Shown piece by piece: positions 15,587 through 20,621 of a DNA stretch of 64,000 nt. The notes under the pieces are model-generated. The model saw only the letters and a list, made by a program, of their open reading frames with translations. It had not been told where the DNA came from and searched no databases. Made by a program: the position numbers and the translations under genes. The DNA comes from Gammaproteobacteria bacterium (GTDB lineage Bacteria > Gemmatimonadota > Gemmatimonadetes > Longimicrobiales > Gaopeijiaceae). The stretch spans positions 8,308 to 72,307 of the forward strand of contig JAPPHB010000082.1 in the NCBI GenBank assembly GCA_028821195.1, read 5' to 3'. Numbering within the stretch: the first letter of the stretch is position 1; each line of letters opens with the position of its first letter.

Positions 15587-16339
15587 TCAAGGTCGCACAA
15601 GGATCGTCAACGGATCGACGGGTTCGTTGTTTCGAAGGACTTCGAAGTGAAGGTGCGGAGCCGTCGACCGGCCCGTTGATCCACTCAATGCAATGACCTC
15701 GTTCTGGCGCACCAGGTCTCCGCCTTCCACAAACGTCATGGAAGCATGGGCATATAAGCTGGTGTATCCGTCGCCGTGGTCAAGGCGTACAAACCGCCCG
15801 TAGAGCGGATCTTCTCCCGCTTCGGCTACGACGGCTGCGCCCGCCGCGCGGATGTAGGAGCCAGTGGGAACAGCGATGTCCAGGCCTGGATGTTCCCCTA
15901 CCATGCCTTCCATCAGGGTCTGGGTCACAAAGCCTCTTTCCGTGAGCGGCCAGCTGGTGGGCCTGGCTTCGTCCACGAGCGACCGACCGGCGTTTGCCGC
16001 GTTCCTTGTCGGCGGAAGCCACAGGTCCGAGAGCGCGGTTGGGCGGGCTCCAAAGAGTTCCGCAATCCGCCGGTAGCGTGCTTCCACCGTGTCGATGTGC
16101 GCGCCCAGCTCCCGAAGCCCTTCCGCCTGGGCTGCCAGCGAGTCCGACATGATGTCCACGCGATGCGTGGTCACCGCAACGCCGGCCGCGTAGCCCGCGG
16201 AAAGCAGTCCAATCAGCCCGAGCGAAACCAGTACAGCGTGGGTCGCGGTCAATTCATAGCTCTGGGCATCCGCCGAGTCGTCGGCGAGCAACATGACCGT
16301 TAGAGCCCGACGGTTTCGAGACTTTCTATTCCAGAACAT
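15587..16339 (-). CDS. M23 family metallopeptidase (murein endopeptidase)
   Basis: 250 residues from the ATG at 16339. A short basic N-terminus, one transmembrane helix (ATHAVLVSLGLIGLLSAGYAAGVAV), a coiled stretch, then a LytM/M23 domain with GEHPGLDIAVPTGSYIRA (HxxxD zinc ligands) and APHLHFEV (HxH). It probably cleaves peptidoglycan crosslinks while anchored in the inner membrane. The start overlaps the parB stop by 14 bases, and bactofilin follows within 60 bases, so this is one parA-parB-M23-bactofilin transcription unit. Confidence 0.9.
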   Translation of the reverse strand: MFWNRKSRNRRALTVMLLADDSADAQSYELTATHAVLVSLGLIGLLSAGYAAGVAVTTHRVDIMSDSLAAQAEGLRELGAHIDTVEARYRRIAELFGARPTALSDLWLPPTRNAANAGRSLVDEARPTSWPLTERGFVTQTLMEGMVGEHPGLDIAVPTGSYIRAAGAAVVAEAGEDPLYGRFVRLDHGDGYTSLYAHASMTFVEGGDLVRQNEVIALSGSTGRSTAPHLHFEVLRNNEPVDPLTILVRP

Positions 16340-17243
16340 CCGCGGCCTCCCGACCCGACACCAGCGCGAAGACACGTTCGAGATCCCGATCATCGTGAAA
16401 GGGGATCTCAATGCGCCCCTTGCTCCCTCGCTGCCTTCGAACTACGACTCGTGTGCCGAGCGCGGCGCGCAACTCTTCCTGCAACGCGCGCAGCACCGGA
16501 TCCAGTGCTCTCGACTGCCGAGCCCGGCGTTTGCGGTGGTCCGGCGCGTCCTCGTTGCCAGGCGGACGCGTCGGGTTCGTGCGCACGGTCTCCTCCAGCC
16601 TGCGGACGGACCAACCGCCTTCGACCACCATTCGAGCCAACTCGGCGGCCCATTCCTGGTCGTCGACGGCGAGGAGCGCTCGCCCGTGTCCCGGCGTGAG
16701 CTTCTCTTCCCCCAGCAACTGCCGGACTTCGACGGGGAGCTTCAGAAGGCGGAGGATGTTGGTTACCGTGGCCCGGCTCTTCCCGACAGCCAGCGCAATG
16801 TCCTCCTGTGTGCGCTTGAACTTCTCCACAAGCACCTTGTAGCCCTCGGCCTCCTCCAGCGCGCCGAGATTGCGGCGCTGGAGGTTCTCTACAAGCGCCA
16901 GCACAAGCATGGTTTCATCATCCACCTCGCGGACGATTGCCGGCACGTCGCTCCAGCCGAGCCTCGTGACGGCTCGCAGTCGGCGCTCTCCCGCCACCAG
17001 TTCCCAATGCTCCGGTTCCGGCGCGGATCTGACGAGAACGGGCTGAAGCAGTCCGTTGGCGCTGATGGACGCCGCGAGTTCCCGGATTTCCTCCTCCTTG
17101 AACTCACGACGAGGCTGGAAGGGATTGGGACCCACGGAATCCAGGAGCAGGCGTGCGACTTCGCCTTCCACGGGCCGATCGAGATGATCGCCTAGCAGGG
17201 CGCCCAGGCCCCGCCCGAGTCGAGTGTTCGGAGCGACGCTCAT
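16326..17243 (-). CDS. parB: Chromosome partitioning protein ParB
   Basis: 305 residues from the ATG at 17243, which overlaps the parA stop in ATGA. The N-terminal ParB/Sulfiredoxin domain carries the CTP-binding motifs NPFQPRREF and LVAGERRLRAV, plus ALVENLQRRNLGALEEAEGY; the HTH is QEDIALAVGKSRATVTNILRLL; a C-terminal dimerisation domain follows. It loads on parS, and two candidate sites lie 1.4 kb upstream. The frame is open far upstream into parA, but those residues are not ParB-like. Confidence 0.96.
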   Translation of the reverse strand: MSVAPNTRLGRGLGALLGDHLDRPVEGEVARLLLDSVGPNPFQPRREFKEEEIRELAASISANGLLQPVLVRSAPEPEHWELVAGERRLRAVTRLGWSDVPAIVREVDDETMLVLALVENLQRRNLGALEEAEGYKVLVEKFKRTQEDIALAVGKSRATVTNILRLLKLPVEVRQLLGEEKLTPGHGRALLAVDDQEWAAELARMVVEGGWSVRRLEETVRTNPTRPPGNEDAPDHRKRRARQSRALDPVLRALQEELRAALGTRVVVRRQRGSKGRIEIPFHDDRDLERVFALVSGREAADVLE

Positions 17244-18043
17244 GAAGCTGCTCGGGCCCTCGACCTGGTAATCCTGTGCTGCGTTCGCTGAATTACTTCC
17301 CTCGCAAGGCGGAGGTAGTAGCGAGCCCCCGCCGACAGGACGTCGTATACGATGATGGGCTTGCCGAAGCTCGGTGCCTCGGCAAGCCGAACGTTCCTGG
17401 GAATCGCGTTGGTGAAGACCTTGTCCCCAAAGTACTCGCGGGCTTCCCGCGCGACCTGTTTCGAGAGGTTGAGCCGCTTGTCGAACATCGTCAGGAGTAC
17501 GCCCTCGATCTCCAGGCCCGTGTTCAGTCCCCGCTGTACGATCCGCACCGTGTTGAGAAGCTGGCTGAGACCTTCCAGCGCGTAGAACTCGCACTGAATC
17601 GGGATGAGCACGGAGTCGGCCGCCGTGAGCGTGTTGAGCGTCAGGAGTCCCAGCGAGGGGGGACAGTCCACGAGAATGTAGTCGTAATCCTCGCGAATGG
17701 GCTCAAGTGCCGCACGCAGAACGGATTCGCGGGCCTCTAAACCTACCAGTTCGATCTCCGCGCCGGCGAGGTCGCGCGTGGTGCCTACCATGTCCAGATA
17801 GGGGAAGTGAAGCTGACGAACCCTTGATTCCTCGATCGAGCGCCCCCCGATCATGACGTCGTACATGCCGGAGACCTGATCATGGCCCCAGAGGCCCAAT
17901 CCGCTGCTCGCATTGGCCTGTGGATCCATGTCGATGACCAGCGTGCGCTGTTCAGCCACTGCCAACGCAGCTCCCAGGTTGATCGCAGTCGTGGTCTTGC
18001 CTACGCCCCCCTTCTGGTTGGCGATGGTAATGACTCTGGACAT
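17240..18043 (-). CDS. parA: Chromosome partitioning ATPase ParA (Soj)
   Basis: 267 residues, typical for chromosomal ParA. The deviant Walker A is NQKGGVGKTTTAINLGAAL at residues 9-27; Walker A' VIDMDPQANASSGLG; Walker B YILVDCPPSLG. There is no N-terminal HTH, as in chromosomal rather than plasmid type Ia proteins. It forms nucleoid-bound ATP dimers that move ParB-parS. It is four-base coupled to parB. Confidence 0.97.
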   Translation of the reverse strand: MSRVITIANQKGGVGKTTTAINLGAALAVAEQRTLVIDMDPQANASSGLGLWGHDQVSGMYDVMIGGRSIEESRVRQLHFPYLDMVGTTRDLAGAEIELVGLEARESVLRAALEPIREDYDYILVDCPPSLGLLTLNTLTAADSVLIPIQCEFYALEGLSQLLNTVRIVQRGLNTGLEIEGVLLTMFDKRLNLSKQVAREAREYFGDKVFTNAIPRNVRLAEAPSFGKPIIVYDVLSAGARYYLRLAREVIQRTQHRITRSRARAAS

Positions 18044-18271: not shown

Positions 18272-18634
18272 CTAGCCCGCGGCGGCATCCGAATCAGGGA
18301 AGTACCGCGCCTTCATCGCCTGGAAGCGGTGGGCGGCCTTTGCATCCAGCTTCTCGTCCAGATACCGGTCCAGCAAGGGAACCAGGTGTTCCCGCAGGAA
18401 GGATCCGCGCGCCATCCACTGGTAGTACTGCCGTCCGCCGTGCCGGTAGGGACCGTACAGCTTCCCACCGGGGAAATGCTCCATGATCCAGTCGAAGAGC
18501 GCCTTGTGGTCGGTGTGCATGCGGAGCGTGACGTGCGGCTGCCGCCCATCTCCACCGAAATGTCCCTCTCCAACGAGGACCCCCACCAGGAACCCGATGT
18601 CGAACTCCCGAGATGCGCCGTGTTTCACCGTCAT
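18272..18634 (-). CDS. Small LAGLIDADG-type domain protein coupled to mnmG
   Basis: 120 residues. The central part reads as a single LAGLIDADG fold: the helix FDIGFLVGVLVGEGHF (GEG replaces the usual DGEG, and the acidic residue is kept), then HVTLRMHTDHKALFDWIM, GGKLYGPYRHGGRQYYQW, and LVPLLDRYLDEKLDAKAAHRFQAM. This matches standalone homing-endonuclease subunits. No intron or intein is visible around it. The ATG at 18634 overlaps the mnmG TGA as ATGA, and the start codon lies at the edge of a parS-like site. It could be a domesticated DNA-binding protein of the origin region; an active nuclease is the alternative. Confidence 0.65.
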   Translation of the reverse strand: MTVKHGASREFDIGFLVGVLVGEGHFGGDGRQPHVTLRMHTDHKALFDWIMEHFPGGKLYGPYRHGGRQYYQWMARGSFLREHLVPLLDRYLDEKLDAKAAHRFQAMKARYFPDSDAAAG

Positions 18635-18695
18635 GTTTCCCGTGAAACACGGTCCGTTCCACGATGTTGTTTCACCGTCATGTTTCCCGTGAAAC
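18622..18695. repeat. 27-nt perfect direct repeat carrying parS-like sites
   Basis: The same 27 bases occur at 18622-18648 and 18669-18695, 47 bases apart. Each begins with GTTTCAC and ends in a parS-like palindrome. Because 47 is not a multiple of three, one copy encodes FTGNMTVK in the mnmG frame and the other encodes the same peptide across the start of the downstream gene. Confidence 0.9.
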
Positions 18696-20571
18696 GTTCT
18701 GGAGCGACGCCCCCCTGCTTCCGGATCTCCATGACGAGGTTCTGAAGGTCTGCCGGCGAGACACCCGAGACCCTCGAGGCCTGCGCCAGTGTGGCCGGTC
18801 GTACCTGATCGAGCTTTTCGCGGGCTTCGTGCGACAGCGTCACCAATCCTTCGTACACGATGTCCTGCGGGATGCGGAATGCCGCACGCGCCCGAAGGGC
18901 GGCCGCTCGATCCCGCTCGCGCTGCACATATCCCGTGTACTTCAGGTCGACCTCGACAGCCAGCAGCGCCTCCTCCCAACCCTCGTCAACAAACGACGCA
19001 TTTGCCGCCCGAATCAGCGCGTCCGAACTCACCTCCGGTCTTCTCAACAACTCCACCGCTCGTGCGGGAGTGCGCAATGGGCTCGATCCCGCTTCCGCCA
19101 AAGCGTCGTTAACCTGCTCGGGCTTCAGGCGCGTCGATCGAAACCACTCGATCAGACGTCCTTCCGTTTCCAGGCGTTCTTCAAGCACCCGGATCTGGCT
19201 GGGCGATAACAGACCCCTTGCGCGCGCGATCGGTCCCAGGCGCGAGAGCGCGTTGTCCTGGCGGAGCAGCAGCCGAAACTCCGCACGCGAGGTGAAGAGT
19301 CGATAGGGTTCATCAACCCCCTTGGTGACAAGGTCGTCGATCAGCACGCCAATGTACGCCTGGTCGCGCTCCAGAATGAAGGGTGCCTCCCCCAGGGCGG
19401 CCAGGCCGGCGTTTGCACCGGCCACCAACCCCTGCCCGGCGGCTTCTTCGTAGCCGGTCGTGCCGTTGATCTGCCCGGCGAAGAAGAGCCCGTCTATCGA
19501 TTTCACCTCCAGCGTGTGTCTCAGCTGATGAGGAAGGAAGTAGTCGTACTCGATCGCGTACCCGCTTCGGGTCATGCGCACCTGCTCCAATCCCGGCAGG
19601 CTCCGCAGGAACCGGAGTTGCACTTCCGGAGGCAAGGAGGTCGACAACCCGTTCACATAGAGTTCGGTCGTGTCCAACCCCTCAGGCTCCAGAAACACCT
19701 GGTGCCCCCGTGCGTCCGGAAACCGGACGATCTTGTCTTCGATAGACGGGCAGTACCGCGGCCCCCGGCCCGCGATGGACCCACCGAACCGCGCGCTCCG
19801 CTCGAGGTTTTCCTGCACGATGTCCCGGAGTTCCTTCCCCGTCCACGTAATCCAGCAGGGACGCTGGCCCGGAAACTCCTCGCGCACAAACGCCGAGAAG
19901 CGAACCCCGGGCTCCGACGGCTGCTCCTCCAGCTTGCCGTAGTCCACGGACCGGCCATCGATGCGGGGCGGCGTACCCGTCTTGAAACGCGCCACCTCCA
20001 ACTGGCGACCCTCGAGCGCACAGGCCAGCTCGACCGAGGCCTCTTCTCCGGCGCGCCCTCCCTCCACCCCGGCCCCCAGGCCGACATGAATGCGGCCCCG
20101 AAGAAATGTCCCTGTCGTGATGACCACGGCCGGGGCACTGAACTCGAGTCCGGTGCGCGTGCGCACGCCGGCAATCCGGTCGCCCCGAAGCACGAGATCG
20201 GAAACCATGTCCTGAAAGAGGTCCAGCGTCGACAGCTCTTCCAGCACCCGCCGCACCGCCAGCGAATACAGGGTCCGATCGCACTGCGCGCGCGGACCCC
20301 ACACGGCCGGCCCCTTGGAGCGGTTGAGCATGCGAAAGTGAATGCGCGCCGCGTCCGTGGCCCGTCCCATGACCCCGCCGAGCGCGTCGACCTCGCGCGC
20401 AACGACGCCCTTCGCAATGCCTCCGATCGCGGGATTGCAGCTCATCTGACCGATGCGCGCAAGGTCCGGGGTGATCAGCAGAACCCGGATTCCGAGGCGT
20501 GCGGCTGCCGCCGCTGCCTCCGCCCCCGCGTGGCCTCCGCCTACAACAATGACGTCGTACGTTCTATCCAC
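18631..20571 (-). CDS. mnmG: tRNA uridine-5-carboxymethylaminomethyl(34) synthesis enzyme MnmG (GidA)
   Basis: 646 residues from a GTG at 20571 giving the family start DRTYDVIVVGGGHAGAEAA (FAD dinucleotide motif). PAIGGIAKGVVAREVDALGG, RIHFRMLNRSKGPAVWGPRAQCDR and the C-terminal helical region YVQRERDRAA are present. With MnmE it modifies the tRNA wobble uridine. The protein ends in an atypical tail of about 20 residues (FTGNMTVK..., VSRET) encoded by two copies of a parS-containing direct repeat, so the normal end has probably been extended. Confidence 0.95.
   Translation of the reverse strand: MDRTYDVIVVGGGHAGAEAAAAAARLGIRVLLITPDLARIGQMSCNPAIGGIAKGVVAREVDALGGVMGRATDAARIHFRMLNRSKGPAVWGPRAQCDRTLYSLAVRRVLEELSTLDLFQDMVSDLVLRGDRIAGVRTRTGLEFSAPAVVITTGTFLRGRIHVGLGAGVEGGRAGEEASVELACALEGRQLEVARFKTGTPPRIDGRSVDYGKLEEQPSEPGVRFSAFVREEFPGQRPCWITWTGKELRDIVQENLERSARFGGSIAGRGPRYCPSIEDKIVRFPDARGHQVFLEPEGLDTTELYVNGLSTSLPPEVQLRFLRSLPGLEQVRMTRSGYAIEYDYFLPHQLRHTLEVKSIDGLFFAGQINGTTGYEEAAGQGLVAGANAGLAALGEAPFILERDQAYIGVLIDDLVTKGVDEPYRLFTSRAEFRLLLRQDNALSRLGPIARARGLLSPSQIRVLEERLETEGRLIEWFRSTRLKPEQVNDALAEAGSSPLRTPARAVELLRRPEVSSDALIRAANASFVDEGWEEALLAVEVDLKYTGYVQRERDRAAALRARAAFRIPQDIVYEGLVTLSHEAREKLDQVRPATLAQASRVSGVSPADLQNLVMEIRKQGGVAPERFTGNMTVKQHRGTDRVSRET
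18634..18649. promoter_or_regulatory. parS-like site 1
   Basis: TGTTTCCCGTGAAACA differs from the common bacterial parS palindrome TGTTTCACGTGAAACA at one position. It lies 600 bases from parA, where parS is usually found. It includes the first base of the LAGLIDADG gene's start codon. Confidence 0.75.
18681..18696. promoter_or_regulatory. parS-like site 2
   Basis: TGTTTCCCGTGAAACG, two mismatches from the parS consensus, within the mnmG 3' end. It shares the same non-consensus C with site 1, so either the local ParB prefers this variant or the pair arose by duplication. Confidence 0.65.
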
Positions 20572-20621
20572 GATCTGCAATCCGCGCTTCCCGCACCGTC
20601 CGCCGGAGCGGCCTGACACGT

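Follow-up and report, generated by a model that had tools for sequence, protein, structure and literature searches.

A LAGLIDADG-fold gene beside a rebuilt parS site: a candidate homing gene of the bacterial centromere

We have analysed a gene for a 120-residue protein that lies between mnmG and parAB in a stretch of 64,000 nucleotides (called the window below) from contig JAPPHB010000082.1 of assembly GCA_028821195.1, a bacterium of the phylum Gemmatimonadota. In the window's family, canonical parS, the site of the ParABS segregation system, has been replaced in synteny by a different site beside this gene, and canonical parS appears to be missing from the carrier genomes. The presence of an endonuclease-fold gene beside a rebuilt parS in many unrelated phyla points to the takeover of a core segregation signal by a mobile gene. 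The reading we prefer, to which we give a probability of about 0.52 on the basis of sequence comparison, is that the LAGLIDADG-fold protein is a parS-targeting homing endonuclease travelling with a cleavage-resistant centromere, the gene and the rebuilt site being a putative two-part unit. The wider picture, in which a mobile endonuclease gene would have homed on the bacterial centromere, crossed about 11 phyla with a cleavage-proof parS, erased canonical parS and left segregation to run on the replacement, the selfish gene or its product thereby joining the segregation machinery, has in our view an even chance of being right.

The site beside the gene

Among bacterial DNA signals parS counts as nearly universal and highly stable, and we have taken as canonical the 16-bp palindrome TGTTTCACGTGAAACA or its TGTTYCACGTGRAACA forms. 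An earlier interpretation of the window made from the letters alone (the sequence-only reading) had placed a near-consensus parS at the start codon of the gene. A 16-mer with one mismatch is indeed found there, but it is part of a longer unit, TGTTTCAC-N13-GTGAAAC(A/G) on the plus strand, two copies of which make up a 28-bp direct repeat with 47-bp spacing (Table 1). The number of parS matches expected by chance in the window at the threshold used, three mismatches, is 0.02. The elements of the unit are a ParB half-site GTT(T/C)CAC, an inner half-site that is degenerate, the letters T-N-ACG and one more half-site, GTGAAACA, and the motif of GTT(T/C)CAC, 13 bp and GTGAAAC recurs upstream of the gene in relatives. 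That is, the site is a distinct composite standing in place of parS, and more than a near-consensus parS.

We have confirmed 148 relatives of the protein among one-per-species genomes and kept the best 80 of them. The non-redundant set has 74 loci, i.e., 91 with a tblastn match minus 14 near-copies from the window's genus, L063 (which is the L013 locus) and the truncated L015, L039. With a weight matrix seeded with the exact sites, the composite is present in 73 of the 74, the exception (L067) having 67 nucleotides upstream only. There are two copies in 53 loci, one in 19 and three in one, and paired upstream copies lie 31–145 bp apart. Of these 128 composites, 126 are upstream of the gene, 124 are within 350 nucleotides upstream, and 124 have the same orientation relative to the gene. 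Since the matrix is of fixed length and cannot test the spacer, the spacer was examined by a regular-expression count (spacers 0–30, at most 400 nucleotides upstream of the gene), where it is 13 in 111 of 112 half-site pairs and 26 in the remaining one. The right-hand box, T-N-ACGGTGAAACA, hardly varies. When the composites are read in the register of parS, their left half is intact for the most part, and the inner right half completes canonical parS (GTTYCACGTGRAAC) in none of the 128 composites. It is broken in 26 combinations of positions, giving 40 different heptamers, and being broken in so many different ways fits what would be expected for repeated escape.

At the genome level, the window's assembly (4.2 Mb, 99.6% complete, 5.9% contamination) has the two 16-mers inside the composites, with one and two mismatches, as its sole sites within two mismatches of parS, and no exact composite beyond the two. 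Among 59 genomes, namely this one and 58 relatives, the gene is found in 10 and the composite in the same 10, two copies each, and in none of the 49 gene-free genomes; the raw gene tally was 11, from which a match in G003 (28% identity, E 0.005) was set aside as spurious. In the family, each of the 23 genomes that lack the gene has canonical parS, 17 of them with no more than one mismatch to TGTTTCACGTGAAACA and six as TGTTCCACGTGGAACA, and a match within one mismatch occurs in 30 of the 49 gene-free genomes overall. In the 10 carriers, no parS within one mismatch is found except the composite itself. In the stretches examined of six gene-free family loci (L139–L141, L143–L145), the perfect palindrome TGTTCCACGTGGAACA is the sole site within two mismatches of parS.

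The replacement has taken place at the same position. In the gene-free loci inspected, parS is upstream of parA, mostly just past the mnmG stop; 19 of these 25 loci were fetched because of their canonical parS, and the unbiased count is that of the 23 family genomes. The gene-free locus L151 has a parS pair 48 bp apart, and the carriers of the window's genus have a composite pair 47–50 bp apart. The gene adjoins the composite; it does not interrupt canonical parS, which has given way to the composite.

We have also searched 50 further carrier genomes, which represent 50 of the 73 loci. The exact canonical 16-mer occurs in none of them, and the composite occurs in 47 (reversed-pattern control: 0). 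One-mismatch forms are seen in five: those of G062 and G073 are the composite's own sequence, that of G102 overlaps the composite, that of G060 lies 137 nucleotides upstream of the gene, and that of G101 is on a small contig. Outside the stretch around the gene, GTTYCACGTGRAAC is found in three of the 50, with about three expected by an estimate assuming uniform base composition. A half-site pattern search across the phylum matches 321 of 395 genomes, a count that mixes canonical, composite and chance spacers.

The regular placement and orientation of the sites (124 of 128 in each respect) would also be expected if the protein were only an autoregulator, with the composite as its operator overlapping parS half-sites by chance and partitioning relying on other, unrecognised sites. 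We consider this improbable, because the arms of the composite are ParB half-sites, canonical parS occupies the same place in close relatives, and the window's genome offers no other site within two mismatches of parS.

The protein, its neighbours and its spread

The AlphaFold2 model of the protein, built with 63 relatives, has a mean pLDDT (predicted local distance difference test) of 92.5 and the element order of a LAGLIDADG domain, alpha-beta-beta-alpha-beta-beta-alpha. In a Foldseek search of the PDB there are 78 matches at E no greater than 0.001, and all 50 matches listed are LAGLIDADG endonucleases or engineered forms of them; the best of those listed is I-OnuI (2.7e-5), and I-CvuI, I-CreI, I-Vdi141I and I-CeuI are also there. 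At the sequence level, the best PDB match is again I-OnuI, with GEGHFG aligned on GEGHFG, which is not significant alone (E 0.19). The LAGLIDADG call of the sequence-only reading therefore stands by predicted fold, although its proposed profile search gave nothing: no Pfam family matches the protein at E up to 1 and no NCBIfam family at E up to 10. Among the 63 relatives, three reach LAGLIDADG_3 (PF14528) and one LAGLIDADG_2 (PF03161) in Pfam at E up to 0.1 (best E 0.0084), and the protein has a weak PHROG match to a family labelled HNH endonuclease (E 9e-5). No helix-turn-helix (HTH) family matches it, and the LAGLIDADG fold fills nearly its whole length. Overall, the model indicates a genuine LAGLIDADG-fold protein, which would be expected to act as a homodimer because it has a single LAGLIDADG motif. 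All 63 relatives share Glu23, the residue at the catalytic-acid position, a figure biased by the use of GEGHFGGD as one of the search patterns.

The earlier suggestion that an endonuclease fold is physically linked to parS agrees with the gene being kept at the locus in all nine members of the window's genus in which the parA region was found (G003 and G007, of 11, have no ParA match at E up to 1e-60). Within this genus the ratio of non-synonymous to synonymous substitution rates (dN/dS) is about 0.10 for the gene, compared with 0.115 for mnmG, 0.145 for parB and 0.044 for parA. The gene is under purifying selection and evolves with its neighbours there. The outcome that the sequence-only reading had named as refuting it, loss from the locus in all close relatives combined with a lack of purifying selection, is thus not seen.

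Of 64 carrier ParBs, 62–63 keep the residues that correspond to R173, N178, G201 and R204 in the ParB of Caulobacter (C. crescentus), positions given as parS contacts in the excerpted text of PMC7383237, and the window's ParB likewise retains them. Because these positions are retained, ParB loading at the composite is plausible. For the same reason canonical parS should stay readable, and its absence hints at counter-selection. The residue beside N178 is T or S in five of six carrier rows (Gemmatimonadota group) and in one of 25 gene-free rows, the other 24 having A; this exploratory difference was found by eye in one of eight flagged alignment columns, and we take it as a lead only.

According to record titles, the relatives come from 11 phyla: Acidobacteriota, Actinomycetota, Armatimonadota, Binatota, Chloroflexota, Deinococcota, Dormiibacterota, Elusimicrobiota, Gemmatimonadota, Myxococcota and Planctomycetota. 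Some titles are unreliable, and Gammaproteobacteria is the name given in the titles of three near-copies of the window; additional relatives are untitled or belong to a truncated Rhodothermales locus. ParA or ParB is encoded in the flanks of 65 of the 74 loci. Contig ends truncate five of the remaining nine; the flanks are complete in four (three Armatimonadota and one Elusimicrobiota), and the composite is kept in all four; in the three Armatimonadota a valyl-tRNA-synthetase-like gene (Pfam-tested in L077 and L093) is the neighbour. The gene thus goes with the site and not with parAB. Calidithermus roseus has the gene order dnaA, mnmG, the LAGLIDADG gene, rsmG (GidB), parA, parB. We considered whether the gene had taken the place of rsmG, as the short mnmG–parA interval might suggest, and dropped the idea; three of six loci inspected have frames of at least 150 residues between parS and parA, none of them rsmG-like by eye. 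As for narrower distribution, in genus g79 of family f7 the gene is in G183, G386 and G399 and undetected in 13 genomes, a case of presence and absence within a genus.

The trees of the gene and of ParA conflict strongly across phyla, with some phylum signal left. When both trees are compared over an identical set of 58 rows whose phylum is named, the phylum labels require eight changes on the ParA tree (minimum 7) and 17 on the gene tree, where Calidithermus joins Myxococcota and Binatota on a supported branch. Mean identities within and between phyla are 0.62 and 0.60 for the gene and 0.71 and 0.51 for ParA, the gene's between-phyla value being inflated by the selection of the best 80. The conflict gives indirect support to transfer of the gene. 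It also bears on whether this is an ordinary conserved protein that sits beside parAB through shared gene order, the change of parS being a coincidence. Many bacteria share synteny over mnmG–parAB, and common inheritance could account for the pairing of composite and gene; nevertheless, the gene occurs on either strand and with different neighbours, parAB is absent in the four loci with full flanks, the gene and ParA trees disagree, and the link between gene and site is constant, so that we regard this explanation as very unlikely.

Proposed homing, possible co-option and the points on each side

In our preferred explanation, the open reading frame would be one half of a two-part unit, and the rebuilt centromere site just upstream the other. 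The small LAGLIDADG-fold protein would act as a free-standing homing endonuclease with the canonical parS palindrome as its target, and since the parS motif is widely conserved, one enzyme could work in many phyla. It would cut the resident parS, repair would copy in the unit of gene and composites, and the remaining canonical parS sites would be lost. The composite would then serve as the carrier's own centromere: we propose that ParB can still load because ParB half-sites are kept, and that the composite resists cutting because its inner half-site is broken. The enzyme probably still binds the composite, using it as the operator of its own gene. After fixation the unit would pass vertically under selection, presumably because ParABS now depends on the composite. 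What we infer, then, is binding or cutting of parS by the protein, a role of the composite as the working centromere, and cleavage as the cause of the loss of canonical sites. The sequence-only reading had argued that, with no intron or intein nearby, a simple homing role is not apparent. We have come to a different view, since a free-standing gene that homes on parS could produce the tree conflict, the constant link with the site, the lack of canonical parS and the invariant glutamate at the catalytic position.

On the other hand, the protein could be a domesticated centromere co-factor, its cleavage lost or unused, acting as a fourth part of ParABS that binds the composite and helps ParB to load or orients the array, with gene and site spreading between phyla as a working replacement centromere. 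We judge this a tentative second choice, less probable than homing. It is favoured by the purifying selection on the gene, the lack of stops inside the matched domain in 80 loci, the strongly conserved right-hand box with its constant spacer, the constant orientation of the site toward the gene, and the possible ParB adaptation beside N178. In addition, site similarity tracks the protein, an observation that counts for homing as well: in partial correlations over 58 loci, each controlled for the other two proteins, r is 0.24 (p 0.001) for the LAGLIDADG protein, 0.10 (p 0.055) for ParA and 0.06 (p 0.16) for ParB. However, the catalytic-position glutamate is invariant, whereas the domesticated WhiA has lost its catalytic residues according to the excerpted text of PMC3781837, and a co-factor alone would leave the genome-wide absence of parS unexplained, given that ParB keeps its contact residues.

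Several observations weigh against homing as we propose it. The right-hand box would not have to be as conserved as it is if resistance to cutting were all that the composite had to provide. No stop is found inside the matched domain in the 80 loci (L043 has no usual start codon in frame, and L039 and L075 are cut off where their contigs end), and homing genes usually decay once fixed; the dN/dS of 0.10 with vertical descent in the genus fits a host function equally well. The raw correlation with site similarity over the 58 loci is lowest for the protein (0.34, with 0.43 for ParA and 0.42 for ParB). The gene tree retains phylum signal, as shuffled labels give about 28 changes on both trees, and the gene is still correlated with ParA (Mantel r 0.28, p 0.001). 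The selection of the best 80 and the GEGHFGGD pattern inflate both the identity seen between phyla and the invariance of the GEGHFGGD stretch itself. The 10 carriers among the 59 genomes represent two lineages only, one genus and G020, and a genome-wide presence of TGTTCCACGTGGAACA is excluded in G000 and its counts are explained by the composites in six more carriers, G005, G006 and G020 not having been searched genome-wide. In the plasmid, phage and IMG/VR collections searched there is no homologue of the protein.

A distant subfamily adds to these points. The gene is in 15 of 395 genomes of the phylum, and in four of them, all in family f5 (L178–L181), its product is only 35–45% identical to the window's protein; these genes also adjoin parA, and none of the four genomes has the composite. 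Three of the loci have no site within three mismatches of parS in a 3-kb stretch and bear an altered CACGTG pair 36–46 bp apart; the fourth, L180, has TGTTTCACGTGACACT, two mismatches from parS. For the distant homologue of L179, in f5, the motif is GEGSF. Members of g69 and g107, two genera of this group, that have no detected gene likewise show no canonical parS (no matches in four of six genomes, other spacers in two), and we therefore draw no firm gene–site link for f5. It is possible that the altered CACGTG sites are a second way of changing the centromere.

Spread by phages or plasmids was considered and rejected, as no homologue was found in the collections searched. Four IMG/VR viral contigs do bear a composite-type site, with no relative of the protein found in IMG/VR. 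An intact parS makes up the left part of the site in L184, a 5-kb contig of 33% G+C, and that of L185 is a canonical hybrid, unlike all 128 chromosomal sites. Viral contigs with the composite might use the host's ParB.

Taken together, homing best explains the avoidance of parS in carriers and the many ways of breakage, and a co-factor role best explains the conserved right-hand box and the absence of broken gene copies. A combined history, that of an invader that became needed, is likely.

The locus and its relation to known systems

The features of the window and of the viral contigs are collected in Table 1. Upstream of the gene the order is mnmG, mnmE and a yidC-like gene, and parA and parB are downstream. 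The sequence-only reading had it right that the frame lies between mnmG and parAB and overlaps the mnmG stop as ATGA (start codon 18634–18632, stop 18633–18631, minus strand). Its suggestion of translational coupling fares less well: the overlap is real, but comparison of C-termini shows that mnmG in the window's genus is longer by about 15–20 residues than in gene-free relatives and reads through both composites, so the apparent coupling may merely reflect the position of the site. The centromere repeat is here translated as the tail of the MnmG protein (window 18631–18700).

Table 1 Features of the locus in the window and composite-type sites on viral contigs
Feature	Position	Strand	Details
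LAGLIDADG-fold gene	18272..18634	-	120 residues; single motif; E23 of GEGHFGGDG at catalytic-acid position
Composite parS copy 1	18621..18649	-	27-bp core 18622-18648; includes mnmG stop and start codon of the LAGLIDADG gene
Composite parS copy 2	18668..18696	-	27-bp core 18669-18695; within extended mnmG 3' end
parS-like 16-mer TGTTTCCCGTGAAACA	18634..18649	+	1 mismatch; part of composite copy 1
parS-like 16-mer TGTTTCCCGTGAAACG	18681..18696	+	2 mismatches; part of composite copy 2
parA (Soj)	17240..18043	-	267 residues; Pfam AAA_31 1.3e-61, CbiA 7.3e-29
parB (Spo0J)	16326..17264	-	start codon uncertain; Pfam ParB_N, HTH_ParB; alignment to 6t1f
mnmG (gidA)	18631..20619	-	Pfam GIDA 5.9e-152
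Composite-type site, IMG/VR contig L182	1262-1288		
Composite-type site, IMG/VR contig L183	6720-6746		
Composite-type site, IMG/VR contig L184	3504-3530		
Composite-type site, IMG/VR contig L185	5003-5029		

These results describe a large and recurrent exception to the stability of parS, in which the signal is rebuilt alongside the same endonuclease-fold protein. If the proposed mechanism is true, it would offer a natural experiment in the way ParB handles a site that has been changed, and would be, to our knowledge, the first selfish element targeting a bacterial centromere. For annotation, genomes with ParAB but apparently "no parS" may carry the composite. In a literature search by title and start of abstract, with most subscription journals outside its coverage, no LAGLIDADG protein linked to parS is described among the matches listed.

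Among known systems, the closest in structure and sequence are I-OnuI and the single-motif homodimeric homing endonucleases I-CreI, I-CvuI and I-Vdi141I, which share the fold and the LAGLIDADG helix ending in an acid. In contrast to them, the present protein is free-standing with no intron or intein seen, shorter and linked to parS, its target-like site is uninterrupted, and its cleavage is putative. WhiA (DUF199) is similar in being a bacterial chromosomal LAGLIDADG-fold protein that is vertically kept; it has a C-terminal HTH and has lost its catalytic residues, as stated in the same excerpt of PMC3781837, whereas our protein is the LAGLIDADG domain alone and keeps the glutamate. Compared with canonical ParABS (TGTTTCACGTGAAACA), parA, parB and the site are in the usual place and the half-sites are identical, but the site is 27–29 bp with a broken inner half, an extra protein is linked to it, and canonical sites are not found in carriers. 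Finally, Noc and its site NBS are a diverged ParB–site pair, and the excerpted text of PMC7383237 indicates that ParB-family sites can drift with the protein following. Noc is a ParB relative with changed specificity residues, whereas here ParB keeps the equivalents of R173 and G201, and it is a second, unrelated protein that travels with the site.

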